From assembly GCF_964204645.1 (NCBI RefSeq), contig NC_134026.1, forward strand, positions 24,632,650-24,696,649: DNA of 64,000 bases, in the 5' to 3' direction. A program made the translations under genes and the position numbers. This document shows positions 7,037 through 56,875 of the stretch, piece after piece. How positions within the stretch are numbered: position 1 is the stretch's first letter; the number at the start of each line of letters is the position of its first letter. This DNA comes from Tubulanus polymorphus (lineage: Eukaryota > Nemertea > Palaeonemertea > Tubulaniformes > Tubulanidae). The notes beneath the pieces were generated by a model, which searched no databases, was not told where the DNA came from, and worked only from the letters and a program-made list of their open reading frames with translations.

Positions 7037-27546
<20,510 letters not shown>

Positions 27547-38918: not shown

Positions 38919-41900
38919 TTTGTGTTCATAATCCTACAGTCGACTTTCGTAGTAAGCGTCGATAATTCTGACGATAAATCGTATCTTTTGTCCACGCTTC
39001 ATTCAGAAACGTACCGGTAGATAATAATCATCTTTCTGAAGATTAGTTTTTAATGAATGAAAACGATGTATTCACATCCGATATCTTTCAATCAGATCGA
39101 TTATTAATTTGTCGGCGTGCAGTTGTCTCTTCAGCGAATAGTATAACAATCATTCAGCCTTCAGGAAGCAATGTGCTCTCCATAAAAATGGATATCACAA
39201 CATAAATGAAGTGCTAACAACTAGAAATGCAGGAGGCGGTGTACAGTGACATCACAATGCCACCTCTGCTATACACAGCAATGTTTTTCCAATGTGCTTT
39301 TAGCATGCAGTGAATGAAACAGGAAGATACAGCACATGATGTTTCAAAGGAGAAAAATTTGCTGTCATTTGTATTAATTCGTGATGCACCGATTCAAACA
39401 TATGCAACGGCATGCAATACATATTTCATCATAACCCAGCTGACATCAATACCTGCAGGGGACAATTGACAAGAAAAAAATTAAGAGAAGGCATCGTCAC
39501 ATCAGATATGATAAGTAGTTCATAAGAGTGTGAATATCATGACCAGTCTTTTTGAAATAAATGGGATTTTCTTGTGTATTTTCTGGCAATTCATGTCTCA
39601 GTTAGAAGAAGGTAATTCGAACATTGTCTCCTCTATGGAATATTGAACCATTGGCAAGCGATGGTTCATGTCAATCTGTCTGCTTACTGTCTCAAGTAGT
39701 CGCCTTCACATCCAATATTCTTAAAGCGGTCCAAAACGGCTACAGCTTTCTGTCTCTTTATGATGATCATATATGTGCAACGAATCAATAGGCTAAGTTT
39801 TTAGGCGAAGGCAGCAAAATAACGACAGAAAAGCAAATAGACGTTCTGACGCGCAAGCTAATTACTGGACAGCGAAGATGGACATAAATAATCCACACAG
39901 GAAACACCACGCATCTGTTTCAATAAACTACTGATAAAAGATAATGTATGAAATAGCCAAGAGATTCCTGTTGGTAATAAAATATTTAATATAGATCTCT
40001 TGCTGGTGGCAAGGACCAGTCATCAAATTATTTCTTGATCACGTTTTTTTCTAGTTCTTATGCACAAAATCGTGAGTCAAATCAGGGAGCAGGTACGTGG
40101 ACTATCGCCAATGTGATACTTGATGAATTTACCAATTCAGCACAATAAAACGCCACTTTTTAATTTTGGTAAAATATCGATTTGCACTGTGAGCACCGAT
40201 GTAAGGAAGATGATAAAACGATGTTAAATTCAATACGATTTTAACAAGGAGAATATATACAATCCTCATTGATTTAACAGAACGGTTATATCTATTCTTA
40301 TGACGAATGCGTCATCACGAAAAAACTTCTGAATGAAATCGAAATAAAACCATTTCCAACCTACACTCAAACAACAGCGATACATGTAAATATAAAACCA
40401 CACAAAAAAAAATCTACTTTTACGTAAATTCGAATACCATGAATAAATCTATAACTGCCTCCACTGAGATGCATTAATGGCGGCTTAATTCGATCAATTT
40501 CAGCACACATTTTAGTTTTCATTCACTAACAAAGCTATAAAAATATGTATTTCTACAAATCGGTAGAATTTAATGAATTGTACAGGATCCGTACAGATCA
40601 GTCATTCCTGGATATATAGGAGTTTTCAAGGTGTTTCAAAGGAGAAAACTTCGAGGAAGGGTCTGCACCACTTTATATCCAAATAACAGTACACTCCTTC
40701 TAAATCAGTAGTTTATCTCGGTAAACCAGTAATTCAGAAGCAAATTTCTATCCTTAACACCATGTTAACTCGTTTCTTGGTAAATTTGGTTAAAAAATTC
40801 CTATTCCTGGTCCTGACTGTACTGATAGGCATAGTCTAGTGTATAACCATAAACTCGACAATAATTTCGAATTACCTATTTCTCCAAGTTGAAGGAGTTT
40901 TAAAGGAGCTTCAAGTATTTTCTGTTTAGAGGGAGTTTATAAGGAATCAACAAATCGTAGAGACCATGTTACTAATTAAAATGATGCCTGAAAATTGAAA
41001 ACTTAAACGGTCCATTCCGTATGAAATGACTGATATTATATCAGAGTTCACATTCAACCACTGCAAAGGTGTTCAGTAGCAGCGCCATCTATGAAAAGAA
41101 TTAGTAATGATCAACGCGAATTGTGAACAAAATACACTAGTGACATCTAACAGAGGAACTGAACACTAAACCATTGCTTAGATAAACTAACTCACGATCT
41201 AGCATTTCTTGAATTATAGAAATATTACTGAAAAGTTTTCAGCAGGCTTAGACAATTTGAAGCAACATATCATTTTGGCATTCTAATAAAATTTCCCATT
41301 GATTTCTTACATTGCAACCCCCCTGAAAATGAATGTAAAAAAATGTCTAAAGAACATTTAATTACTGTTAAACATTCCACTGTTTCACTGGATTTATTGA
41401 ACAGTAATATTTTTCGACCAACATCTGTTTTTAGCAAAAATTAATTATGGGATAGTGTCTTCTAACAGTGAATGAGCAATCTATTATAATTAAGCCGGTG
41501 AATGTTCCAATTATCAGCTTTGTCAGTGTTGTCAAAAAGTTCAATTTATCAGCGCGTTTCCATGACAACCAAGTTTTATCATCTTAGCAGACACTTTCAA
41601 ACAGACAGACTATTATTCAGGTTACCAACCTATGAATAAAATTCATTTCACTCAAAGAGACACGTCTTTCAACTTGAATGGTGACAGTCGACTAGAAATT
41701 GGAAAAATTACAGCTGTCATACGGACCAAGGCTATTCGCAAGTGAGTTATAACAGATTTACTTATGATGAAATCAAAGATAACCTGTTTCGTCCCCAGCA
41801 AGTGTGGTGGGTTTGTAGGGGACACATATAGCAAATTAAAATTAATTAACCAATGAAATAGGCTAAATAAAAGGAACAATTCTCTATTTTACGATACAAA

Positions 41901-51400: not shown

Positions 51401-51896
51401 GATGTCCAGTAGACTATTCTCCATAATACTGGCAATATATGAGGCTCTACATAACTCCACGGTTTCTTACATGGCATTGGAATCGTTGTAGACATTCCGG
51501 TGTTCTGTGAAACATTCTGGTGATTTGGAGTAAATGTTGAATTTGATGGGTGAGATTTTAAATCAGATGAAGAATTCAAAGAAGGGGCCAATGTTGTTGT
51601 AATAGTGACAGGCATTTGGTGTTCCTTAACACACTGATGATAATACGTCTAAAATAAAGAAAATATAGAAAAATTACAAACATTATTTTCAATAATCTCT
51701 CTCGCAAATAGATTAGACTTACTGATGAGACATCGAGGGGCAGTATGAATATTATCATGAATGAGAAATACCACGCTATGAATGTGGCTAAAGTAACGAT
51801 GACATGTTGTTTTCGCCAGTTTCCATATCGATTCAGCAGAAATGCAGCCAAGCTACCGACAAGTAGTATTTCTACCACTAATGGAGCAACACTCAT
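48436..51896 (-). CDS. LMBRD2: LMBRD2, LMBR1-domain multipass membrane protein
   Basis: Twelve exons: 51723-51896, 51386-51648, 51143-51310, 50842-51052, 50677-50751, 50141-50426, 49881-50062, 49675-49808, 49471-49579, 49154-49355, 48823-48948 and 48436-48668; phases agree and give about 720 aa (human 695). Many hydrophobic segments are visible, e.g. [35 protein letters not shown] and [18 protein letters not shown]. Diagnostic family stretches include [58 protein letters not shown] and [16 protein letters not shown]. The loop after exon 2's start is Ser/Thr/Asn-rich, with NST and NVS sequons, fitting an extracellular glycosylated loop. The C-terminus ends GIFDDV, like human IFNDV. LMBRD2 is a plasma-membrane protein reported to modulate beta2-adrenergic receptor signalling. 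The start was chosen at [10 protein letters not shown], 15 codons inside a longer frame. Confidence 0.97.
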
Positions 51897-52137
51897 TCTC
51901 TCGCTGCAAAAACCCAATAGCTCTGAAAAGATTGAACACAAAGTTTTGTTTTGGTACTTAGCACAGCTGGTAATGATTTGCGATTCAGTCTCTACGTTTT
52001 ACGAATAATTTGCACCATCAAACAATATTAGACTCATAAATTCGATAGATATTCTAGTTATCATAATCAAACGAAGGAATTACACGTAATTTACCTTTTG
52101 CAAATACTATTTTACATCAAATTCATTTTTATACGTC
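51897..52137. promoter_or_regulatory. compact divergent promoter, LMBRD2 / PIGY-CRCP
   Basis: Only 241 bp separate the LMBRD2 ATG (minus) from the inferred PIGY ATG (plus). Both 5' UTRs and the promoter(s) must fit here unless upstream noncoding exons exist. No TATA box is evident. Confidence 0.5.
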
Positions 52138-53263
52138 ATGTTCGATGTTTGGGTAACACTATTTCTCGTACTGCGGCTTGGACTCACGAGTGTTTGCATG
52201 CCAACCGGGTTGTTTTCCAACTTAGAATAATTTAATGGGACAGTAGGTCTATGAAATCAACTTGAAATTAGCCTTTAATGTTTAAAGATGTGGAAAGTCT
52301 CTAAAAGAAACGTTGAAATCGTACAGAATTTAGTAAGTTTTGATTCGATTTGTAGACGTAGTCTTTCTGTCTGGCTAATTAGCGCCATTGGCCGACTGTA
52401 TCCGCCGCATACACCGTCAACACGCAGTTAAAGAACTTTTTAAAAATCTATTTTCAGTTTTATTTCCTGACTGTTGTAATATCATGGGGATTCGTACTGT
52501 TCGCTGCGTATTACATCAACAAAGATCATCTTGATTATTTAGTGAAAAGTAAATATGGACTTGCATAAATTGAACTGAAAGTTGTCGTGAAAAGTATTTT
52601 TCGAAGAAATTTTGTGGACGTATCTGGAATCGAGATTATGGAAGTTATCGATGAAAACACTGCTTTACTGAGTAATTTTGAAGTGCATCAGTTATTAAGT
52701 GAGATACAACAAAAATTGAAGGGAGAAAAAAAACCCAATAAAAGTCTACAGAATTTAGCGACAATTTCCTATGAAACGATTAAATATTTAGAAAAGTCGC
52801 CTTGTAAAGACCAGGACATCGAATCGCTCGAGCAGTTTATGAAAGCGATTGGACCGTATAATCTTACAAAAGCTGAAAAACTACAGTTGTTTAACCACCG
52901 TCCATCGACCGCCGTGGAAATACAGCTTCTAATCGAAGAGAGCGAAGAGCGTCTTTCCGAAAACCAAATCGAAGAACTTTTAGAAATTACCGCTTCAAAT
53001 ACTGGTGAGGAGGAGCAAATGACTGACACTGTATATGAAAATGAAGATGATAATCCTGACAACGAAATGTTAGAATAGTCAATTTGGGAACACTGAATAC
53101 TTGTGCTCTTTTGAATACTTGAAAAATGGAGGATGATATTTTCTCTGCTCCAGAAAATAACTGGATATTGTATTATGTTTTACTCATGCCATGCACGATT
53201 CCTGTCTTAATCGTCGCCATGTTAATAATGTGGATGGGCAAAGAGTTGTTCATAAACAATTGA
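52138..53263 (+). CDS. PIGY: PIGY, small subunit of GPI-N-acetylglucosaminyltransferase (three exons)
   Basis: Exons 52138-52152 (MFDVW), 52458-52548 and 53154-53263, with phases 0 and 1 matching at the joins; total 71 residues, the same length as human PIGY. PIG-Y is an ER membrane subunit of the PIG-A complex that starts GPI-anchor synthesis. Two membrane segments are present: FYFLTVVISWGFVLFAAYYI and LMPCTIPVLIVAMLIMWMG. The end IMWMGKELFINN parallels human WTWMGIKLFRHN, and MPCTIPV parallels LPITIPV. Exons 2 and 3 are bounded by tttcag and a ctctgctccag acceptor. The five-codon first exon (donor GTAACA) is the least certain part. An ATG at 53126 could instead start a 45-residue C-terminal product without splicing. 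Intron 2 contains the complete CRCP ORF on the same strand. Confidence 0.75.
52638..53078 (+). CDS. CRCP: RNA polymerase III subunit RPC9 (CRCP), intronless
   Basis: A single open frame of 146 codons. It starts MEVIDENTALLSNFEVHQLL, closely following human CRCP (MEVKDANSALLSNYEVFQLL), and contains NLATISYETIKYLEKSPC, LTKAEKLQLFNHRPSTAVEI and LIEESEERLSENQIEELLE. RPC9 pairs with RPC8 in the Pol III stalk, and the same protein is the vertebrate CGRP-receptor component RCP. The acidic tail (DTVYENEDDNPDNEMLE) is in place of the variable human C-terminus. I use the ATG at 52638; the longer in-frame upstream stretch begins with GTG and is not conserved. The ORF lies wholly within PIGY intron 2 (52549-53153) and carries no intron of its own. 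Confidence 0.95.
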   Translation: MEVIDENTALLSNFEVHQLLSEIQQKLKGEKKPNKSLQNLATISYETIKYLEKSPCKDQDIESLEQFMKAIGPYNLTKAEKLQLFNHRPSTAVEIQLLIEESEERLSENQIEELLEITASNTGEEEQMTDTVYENEDDNPDNEMLE

Positions 53264-53544
53264 GATTACAAAATTTTCTCAACTTAATTGTAGAATTTGA
53301 TTATATTTAGATAACTAGCCTGCCTGATATCCTTTGTTTCCTTAGACTAGTGCGGGTTGACAAAATCGAGATAATATAATGTGAAAATTGTTTATTTATA
53401 GAACATTGAGAAATGTCTCCAAGTCATTATATATGAGGAATCATGCATGACTTTGCTTTTTTATTAATAGTGTATTTCTTAAGAATACATGCAAAATAGA
53501 TATTATTAAATGATTTAGCCTAAATGAAAAAAATCTTTGTTAGA

Positions 53545-53550
53545 AATAAA
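53545..53550 (+). terminator. poly(A) signal likely shared by PIGY and CRCP transcripts
   Basis: AATAAA 282 bp after the PIGY stop. No signal is evident between the CRCP stop (53078) and PIGY exon 3, so both products probably use this 3' end. Confidence 0.5.
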
Positions 53551-54490
53551 GGCAAAATATTTTCTAATAAATCATATGACTTGTGGTACTGATCTAGTTC
53601 ATTAGAGGATTTGACTCAAGTGGAAGAAGTGCAGGTACTCTTGTGTGTGCTGCATATGTGAATGGCAGCCTTCATTAAAACATATGGACTGGGAGGTCTA
53701 CGTGGTGAATTACCAAGTTATCATTGGTGACCAACGATTCTTTGGTTAGTGTCAGTGATTTATTTCCCAAAAGTGCAGACGGTGAAAGGCTTTGGAAATA
53801 AAATTCAATTCGCATGATCTTCTGGAATAAGCTTGTTGGGTTTTTTTTGAAACTGTGTCTTCTGATTGTGCATAAATGTCAAAGAAACTGAATTGAACCC
53901 CAATCTTTTTCTTCGGAACCGGGAAATTTTGACAGCCCGAGATGTGCATGCAGATAAGATCTAACATCGTATGGTGCTGCCACCTGTAAAGGGGCAACGG
54001 GAAATAGTTGTGCATAGTTACGCTCTCTTAGCATTGCAATTATTTCATAAATTTCCTACACATTCCATTTGATAAGGATTTTCAAGCGCAGCTTTACGGA
54101 GATGGAAATGGTTCGTATCGTGGTGGTGTTGCTCAAACTTTTTAAACGTGGTTTATTACCATTTTTACGGCTAAATTTCTAATTAAAAGTACAGTGTATG
54201 ATTGCAAAGCAAGGAATGTGAAAAAATTACAACGAAATTTTATTGAATTTTTGACGTTTAAAATTTGTAGGAAATTTTAGGAAGCAACTTAAACGATACT
54301 CGGTTCTCTATTTTCAGATTTAATAAAGAGGACATTTATCATTTCACCAGTTCATGTGTCAAGACTACTTTAACAAGAAACACAAAGAGTAATGGAAAAT
54401 AATTGTTAAAACCGTCAGTCATCAATTTCATATACTCTCTCTCGGAAATAGCTTTAAGCTCACCTTTTTGGTGGTGTCTCATTACGAAAA
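53551..54490. other. intergenic, PIGY/CRCP to CCDC74
   Basis: About 0.9 kb with no supportable exon. It presumably holds the CCDC74 promoter and 5' UTR; a minus-strand open frame near 53.75-54.0 kb has no family support. Confidence 0.4.
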
Positions 54491-56875
54491 ATGAATCCAA
54501 TCCTGGTGCAAGAAACAGTTCCCTTACCTTCATCGATGGATATCAATCAACAATTGCCACCTCTACAGCAACAGATGCCACAATGGTCACGTGTTGGTGC
54601 TCTCGACAAAGCAAGGTACCCGAAACCATTCCTCAAAGACCGCCTTCAGCCATTACCTCCAACAAATGATAACAGCAGTGTTAAAACGCGTGAAAACTCA
54701 GCTGATTCCAGTGAAAGATCCATAGAAATCAAAAAAGATCTGAATGCGTCGTCATCAAGGGTACAGCATTTAGAAAGAAGTATCCTATTCCTGAAGCAAC
54801 AACATTGTGACATATTATCTAGTCTTCACCAAGAAATAGACACTTTAAAAAAAGAGAATAAAGGTTGGTGAAATAAACACCGATTTCTCAATCAAAACCT
54901 ATGACAGTGTCTCGATTCTCATGATGACAATTTCCTCATTCTTTTTAGAATTACAGTTCCAGTTGGTGATGGTTCAAAAGTTATCCCCACCAGCATCTGC
55001 TAAGCAATCATCTCGACATAACAGCGCTAAAGGAAATGCTAAGGAACAGAAACGTAATTTTCAGATTATCTTTTGAATGAAATTTGTGTAAAAACACATG
55101 ATGTTCTTGCTGCTTTCATAATTACTTTATGATAATAGTCTCCTAATGCTTTTCATTAAAACCAATTTTATTTCACCTAGGATCTAGTGCTGTTAGAAGA
55201 CTACCTCCTGTAGAGAAAATTTCATCTGGTATGTTGGTCCTATCATGAATTGTCTTCCAAATTAAAACCAAACCATGAAATGATCAAATGCTTTGTCAAC
55301 ATGAAAGATTAAGTGTATTTTGATAATTTCGCAGCAGGTAGCAGTAAAAAGAATGTAGAAGTCCGTGCAGTGTATTTAGATGATGAGATCAAGCAATTGA
55401 AATTTCAACTGAAAGAGGCTCAAAATAAGAATGCCTACCTCAAACAATTACTAGACGAACAAAATAAGAATATAATGTGAGTATAGACCTACTGAAACAA
55501 TTAACACTTCATAAAGCTTCTACAATCTGTGCTAATAAATATTTCCTGTTATTTTGAAGTTGTATATGCGTTGTGTTTTTAGCAAGGAATCGATTGAAAG
55601 AAAGGCGATTGATGGGCCTGTTGGTGAATTCGGAGGGGCAGGTGCTGCATCTGCACCGGATGTCAGTCATATTGACTTAGAAGGAGAAGGTACGGAACAC
55701 ATGGATATCACGACTAATCCAATAACTATTAACAGCATGCACACTGGTTCGCGAAAACCAACTACTGCAGAATACGAAGCCATGATTCGATATTTGCATG
55801 GATTGAATCAAAGACAGAATAATGAGGTAAATCAACAATTCAGATCAATCTATTAATCACCTCTGAATAAGAAAGGATGGCTTGTAATTTACTACCAGTG
55901 TATTGTTCTATATTACAGTTAATGCAGTTAAAAACAGATTTAAAAGATGTTATATATTCACAAAAGTGGACACCAGATGCTTACCTTCTGGCTAAAGCTT
56001 ACATAGCTGAAGATGAAGACATAGAATTGGCAGAGAAGAATCATCTACCAAAGGTTCCAATGAAACATGCTACTCGCAAATTGTAAGTTGGGTATATCTG
56101 AAATAAAATGATGGTTAATTTCTTCTATCTATATTTCGTCTTTCTTCCTTTCTTCACTCTGTCTCGTGTATATCTTGTATTGAGGTATTTTTTTAATTGA
56201 ACCTTTTATTTACGGAAGCCATAAGGAGCTTCAAGTTGTTGCGTGCCAACTCAACAAGTGGCCATAATTATGTCGACATATTGCATCGAGGTGACGTAAA
56301 TATGTTGACATATCTATTGCATCAAGTTGACATAAATAAGTTGACATATCATGTTTTGATGACATATTTCGTTTTGTTGACCATTTTCCCCATGAAAAAC
56401 TGAAATGTTGAAATGTAAGATGAAGATGTCAGAAATATGAGGAATGAGTTTCAAGTTGTCATTTTCAACTTGTCGTGAGGAAAATGGTTGAAAAAACCAA
56501 ATATACTGTCAAAAAATCACGATATGTCGACATGACGCAATATATCGCGATATGTCTACAAAAATATGGAAAATTGTTGAGTTGGAACAGGACAAGTGAA
56601 GGCCCCTTATCACTTCCATATATTCATTAGTGTCTGGTGAACAGAAAATTTTCCTAAAGATACATTACTTTTATAGTACTTTGATCTTTTTTAATTCAAC
56701 TGATATGGATTGATAATATTTGATTGCTCTATTTTCTAGGCCCAATGTAGCTTACGCTCAACGTGATAACGCATCCCTCCCAGCTCTGAAACAGACATTG
56801 GGTAACAAGGCTGCAGAAAGGAGAAAACGCACTCAAATTCTACAGAAAGCAAGATTAAAGAAAGAAATCCTGTAG
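54491..56875 (+). CDS. CCDC74: CCDC74-like coiled-coil protein
   Basis: Seven exons: 54491-54863, 54949-55053, 55181-55228, 55338-55476 (or from 55335), 55583-55826, 55919-56082 and 56740-56875; about 402 aa. Family landmarks: the N-terminal coiled coil VQHLERSILFLKQQHCDILS followed by HQEIDTLKKENKELQFQLVM (human [33 protein letters not shown]), a second helix LDDEIKQLKFQLKEAQNKNA, the RKPTTAEYEAMIRYL box and the C-terminal LPALKQTLGNKAAERRKRTQ. CCDC74 proteins act with kinesin-8 at spindle or ciliary microtubules in vertebrates. The first donor (GTTGGT) is weak, but phase and homology across it are good. Vertebrate CCDC74A/B are a recent duplicate pair, so the letter is omitted. Confidence 0.93.
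56221..56610. mobile_element. MITE-like element in CCDC74 intron 6
   Basis: A 390-bp stretch with imperfect terminal inverted repeats of about 37 bp: left ATAAGGAGCTTCAAGTTGTT..., right (reverse complement) ATAAGGGGCCTTCACTTGTC..., both ending CCAACTCAACAA inward. The inside contains many degenerate GTTGACATAT/GTCGACATAT units in both orientations. There is no coding capacity and no clear target-site duplication. Confidence 0.7.

Follow-up and report, generated by a model that had tools for sequence, protein, structure and literature searches.

A predicted intron of PIGY holds a same-strand, intronless CRCP gene in Tubulanus polymorphus

The window, a stretch of 64,000 nucleotides, is part of contig C2 in an animal genome of 267.8 Mb, with the genes CRCP and PIGY located at 24.685 Mb of this contig. 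They form a small block on the + strand, which sits between a divergent LMBR1-family gene (− strand, start codon near 51896, recognised by Pfam LMBR1) and a gene with a CCDC92 domain (+ strand, start near 54491). The LMBR1-family gene and the PIGY/CRCP block are arranged head to head (51896–52152), with start codons approximately 240 bp apart, which suggests a bidirectional promoter between them. Positions 40000–64000 of the window contain no RNA genes detectable with Rfam. In a gene-poor part of the window, a region of 3.7 kb (20251–24000) displays a raised CpG ratio (1.2–1.8) and a slightly increased GC content.

The larger of the two coding regions in the block is an intact, complete and intronless ORF at 52638–53078 (+ strand), encoding a protein of 146 amino acids that is identified as CRCP/RPC9, a subunit of RNA polymerase III. 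Its product matches the Pfam family RNA_pol_Rpb4 (PF03874) with an E-value of 5.1e-25, essentially over the full length of the domain (profile positions 1–111 of 116), and shares 52% identity with human CRCP. All four matches in the PDB are RPC9 or 18-kDa Pol III subunits, including the human RPC9 chain 7a6h_D (1.3e-36). At a threshold of E≤1, the ORF is the sole match for this protein in a genome-wide search. The human gene is divided into several exons; an intron-bearing copy was not found in the genome search, and neither were relatives of CRCP on viral contigs.

PIGY is a subunit of the GPI-GlcNAc-transferase, and the presence of PIGA in the genome indicates that the GPI pathway exists in this animal. 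The best-defined part of PIGY is exon 3 (53154–53263, + strand, acceptor TTTTCTCTGCTCCAG), which encodes the second transmembrane helix and the conserved C-terminus. The helix is clearly hydrophobic (KD19 of 2.45), and the exon by itself matches the Pfam family PIG-Y (PF15159) with 29.7–32 bits in the genome search and with hmmscan, above the curated cut-off of 25; the spliced three-exon protein scores 28.7 bits. The identities given to PIGY and CRCP by the first-pass annotation hold. A better PIGY gene elsewhere would have spoken against its model, and genome searches revealed neither a second PIGY locus nor a processed copy displaying the exon junctions. A search of the PDB with the PIGY protein gave no match, and with human PIGY one spurious match only.

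Human PIGY and the Pfam PIG-Y profile span two helices, the first of which is predicted here to be encoded by exon 2 (52458–52548, + strand, FYFLTVVISWGFVLFAAYYINKDHLDYLVK; KD19 of 1.82). Its splice sites were evaluated with models derived from 22 introns of this genome, taken from EF1A (two copies), RAN (two copies), RACK1 and PCNA, with the junctions selected by protein match. These introns have a median length of 482 nt (range 236–2777 nt), and their donors obtain leave-one-out scores of 3.2–12.2. Both sites of exon 2 fall inside the range of true sites (acceptor 7.0, donor 5.9), the donor being of below-average strength. The acceptor of exon 3 is poor in a position-by-position model of the 22 sites (−1.2), and reaches 6.05 in a model with a pooled pyrimidine tract, at the low end of the true sites, one of the 22 scoring lower. 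At 605 nt, the intron between exons 2 and 3 (52549–53153) has a length inside the measured range.

The PIG-Y profile itself does not credit the upstream exons. Exons 2 and 3 together score 29.6 bits, against 29.7 bits for exon 3 alone, and three hand-made N-terminal shuffles of similar composition score 23.9–25.7 bits. For this reason exon 2 was assessed by other means, namely by counting stretches with splice sites at least as strong, a phase fitting exon 3 and a helix with KD19≥1.8. No such exon occurred in 1500 simulated third-order Markov sequences of 1 kb each, by which a pure chance origin of exon 2 is rejected. On the + strand of the window, exon 2 is the sole stretch that passes this test; when hydrophobicity is disregarded and either strand is considered, the other passing stretches include recognisable kinase and coiled-coil exons. 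As the thresholds were taken from exon 2 itself and few introns were available for training, the test provides strong support rather than proof, and exon 2 is best described as a supported but not proven coding exon of PIGY. Conditional on this exon, the same-strand nesting claimed in the first-pass annotation stands, with CRCP (52638–53078) lying entirely between exons 2 and 3.

The beginning of the PIGY coding sequence is less clear. The segments 52138–52152, 52458–52548 and 53154–53263 do join in phase to an ORF of 71 codons, as first described, and this equals the human length. The agreement is nevertheless weak evidence, because it depends on a doubtful exon 1. That exon (52138–52152, + strand, MFDVW) is free of stop codons and joins exon 2 in phase 0, and its donor TGG|GTAACACT scores 2.8, weaker than all 22 leave-one-out donors. 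An alternative at 52288–52332 (+ strand, MWKVSKRNVEIVQNL|GTAAGT, with the donor TTA|GTAAGTTT at 5.5 bits) is the top-scoring combination of an ATG and a phase-0 donor within 51901–52420. The intron following it would measure 125 nt, shorter than any of the 22 measured introns, and an out-of-frame ATG is present ten bases 5′ of this candidate exon. Human PIGY begins with MF, like the 52138–52152 exon, and both candidates are therefore retained; neither is fully convincing.

In agreement with the first-pass annotation, neither AATAAA nor ATTAAA occurs between the CRCP stop codon and the end of PIGY exon 3 (53079–53263), while candidate common signals are present at 53505–53571 on the + strand (ATTAAA at 53505, AATAAA at 53545 and 53566). 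From this absence it follows that CRCP and PIGY probably share their 3′ end, and that PIGY exon 3 probably lies within the 3′ UTR of the CRCP mRNA. At the 5′ side, the ATGs at 52484 and 52555 would form a handicap for translation of CRCP from any distal start. The CRCP ATG is the first ATG only of an mRNA that starts after the ATG at 52555, and a putative zone for a separate CRCP transcription start is accordingly placed at 52556–52637 (+ strand). The observed/expected CpG ratio is 1.2–1.6 at approximately 52.0–53.0 kb and drops to 0.35–0.48 beyond. This is compatible with promoter activity throughout the block, though not specific; the block also covers the start of the divergent LMBR1-family gene and does not point to CRCP alone. 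A core promoter motif for CRCP was not identified.

Since a start within 52556–52637 avoids the upstream ATGs and is compatible with the CpG profile, the preferred reading, with a probability of roughly 0.58, is that of a spliced PIGY gene and, within one of its introns and in the same orientation, a CRCP gene free of introns, with its own start, a common 3′ end and an old shared neighbourhood. The PIGY mRNA would begin 5′ of 52458 and be spliced around CRCP, the whole of which is contained in the second coding intron. The CRCP mRNA most likely begins separately, just 5′ of the CRCP ATG, and would remain unspliced, reading through PIGY exon 3 as 3′ UTR. Both mRNAs are expected to end at common poly(A) sites near 53.5–53.6 kb.

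The first-pass annotation had proposed instead that one promoter drives one primary transcript, which yields CRCP when intron 2 is retained and PIGY when it is removed. Such a switch agrees with the common strand, the exons in phase and the lack of a canonical poly(A) signal separating CRCP from exon 3, and the below-average donor of exon 2 makes partial retention conceivable. However, the retained mRNA opens with a truncated PIGY ORF of 41 codons, which starts in exon 1 and ends inside the intron, and the ATGs at 52484 and 52555 likewise precede CRCP. As a consequence, CRCP, an essential subunit, would have to be translated by reinitiation or leaky scanning. With the CRCP ATG placed behind upstream ORFs, a retention switch is not favoured and is regarded as possible but unlikely.

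Rather improbable, too, is a dicistronic mRNA in which CRCP is followed by a single-helix PIGY of 45 amino acids, containing only the second transmembrane helix and translated by reinitiation, with exons 1 and 2 being no part of PIGY. Only with this short form could both full ORFs occur on one mature mRNA. The ORF concerned (MEDDIFSAPENN...ELFINN, 53126–53263, + strand) starts at the first ATG past the CRCP stop codon, 47 nt 3′ of it and in a strong context (aaaaATGg); it is in the PIGY frame, takes in the entire PIGY portion of exon 3 and matches PF15159 with 31.9 bits, a score that equals or exceeds that of the spliced protein. There are also parallels in other animals: CG46311, proposed to be the PIG-Y of flies, has an annotated length of only 40 amino acids, and the knockout is rescued by its coding sequence (PMC12259957), and human PIGY is partnered with PYURF on a bicistronic transcript (PMC13303939). 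On the other hand, a short PIGY leaves unexplained why an in-phase exon encoding a transmembrane helix, with good splice sites, lies just 5′, and it lacks one of the two helices of human PIGY and the Pfam profile. A longer version of CG46311 was likewise built, and the main text does not specify which version rescues (PMC12259957). A spliced-leader operon was rejected, as the ATG at 53186, the first one in frame past the acceptor at 53153, yields 25 amino acids only.

The neighbourhood of the locus suggests how the pairing of the two genes arose. In human 7q11.21 the gene order is VKORC1L1-GUSB-ASL-CRCP-TPST1 (PMC5017670), and CG46311 in flies is a smORF inside Tpst that was shown to act in GPI synthesis (PMC12259957). 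A search of the present genome for TPST, carried out with this linkage already in mind, located all three copies on C2, at 24.37, 25.10 and 25.11 Mb, which is 0.31–0.43 Mb from CRCP/PIGY. ASL is found on C2 at 24.362–24.366 Mb, approximately 7 kb from the first TPST. For a site chosen at random, the chance of lying 0.31 Mb or less from a particular gene is about 0.2% (0.62 of 267.8 Mb). It is therefore distinctly improbable that CRCP is a retrocopy that inserted at random in a PIGY intron and displaced an intron-bearing parent: its intronless state and the failure to find an intron-bearing copy would fit, but it lies 310 kb from TPST and ASL, the neighbours of human CRCP, and has no evident poly(A) tail or target-site duplication. 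ASL adjoins TPST here (C2:24362098–24375612), as it does around CRCP in human 7q11.21. The two other TPST copies are in tandem, approximately 9 kb apart (C2:25104679–25114734). A VKORC1L1-like gene is also present on C2, at 0.38 Mb, and SBDS is located elsewhere.

The pairing of CRCP and PIGY probably derives from an old TPST-PIGY-CRCP-ASL neighbourhood, as judged from three genomes, two of them known through papers only. From such an ancestral neighbourhood, PIGY would have become interleaved with CRCP in the present lineage and come to lie inside Tpst in flies, and would have moved to PYURF in vertebrates. The first-pass annotation had remarked on the coincidence that PIGY twice shares a transcript with an unrelated small protein. 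The repeated sharing of loci is real and extends to flies, where the proposed PIG-Y, CG46311, lies inside Tpst; the coincidence is smaller than thought, because PIGY, CRCP and TPST seem to be neighbours of long standing. A broader proposal, put forward tentatively and at less than even odds, is that PIGY, as a member of a TPST-PIGY-CRCP-ASL cluster of the ancestral animal, repeatedly enters the transcription unit of a remaining neighbour (Tpst in flies, CRCP here) or of a new host (PYURF in vertebrates), so that in the present locus the choice of start site or splicing within a single unit would tie GPI-anchor synthesis to a Pol III subunit.

The nesting of CRCP in PIGY is of a known type, that of nested genes, and can be compared with several described systems. 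VAChT, which occupies the first intron of ChAT, is likewise a complete single-exon ORF within the intron of another gene, and both genes are expressed with the help of several promoters and alternative splicing (PMC3053374). VAChT and ChAT act in one pathway, and their arrangement is kept from nematodes to mammals (PMC3053374), whereas CRCP (Pol III) is unrelated to PIGY (GPI synthesis) and their arrangement is known here from one genome. KTI12 in intron 2 of TXNDC12 is also a tandem protein-coding gene of unrelated function in a host intron; KTI12 was shown to disturb TXNDC12 splicing (PMC3192792), and CRCP seems to be without a canonical poly(A) signal of its own. In human PYURF-PIGY, an unrelated small protein is similarly encoded in the same transcription unit as PIGY, but there both ORFs are on one mature mRNA (PMC13303939), whereas CRCP is intronic and would be removed for full-length PIGY. 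The ORF at the present locus is moreover CRCP and not PYURF; PYURF/Trm112 was not found in the genome search, a type of search that misses short exons. CG46311 resembles the present case in that PIGY coding sequence is enclosed by a different gene, yet its partner is Tpst rather than CRCP (PMC12259957), and TPST here is 310 kb away.

PIGY would have three unrelated partners in three lineages, and two of these partners are linked to each other both in human and in the present genome. If true, this pattern would help to explain why the tiny PIGY is often missed by annotation; it was believed absent from flies until 2025. Two aspects are worth following, namely that PIGY repeatedly becomes entangled with other genes and that its neighbourhood seems to be old, and the present locus offers a testable case of small ORFs locked into the transcripts of other genes. 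Within CRCP, a good donor, CTG|GTGAGGAG, follows position 53004 and is in phase with the acceptor of PIGY exon 3 (53154). Splicing between these sites would fuse CRCP residues 1–122 to the C-terminal helix of PIGY; the intron of 149 nt would be shorter than every intron measured in this genome, and the fit of the two sites is probably due to chance.
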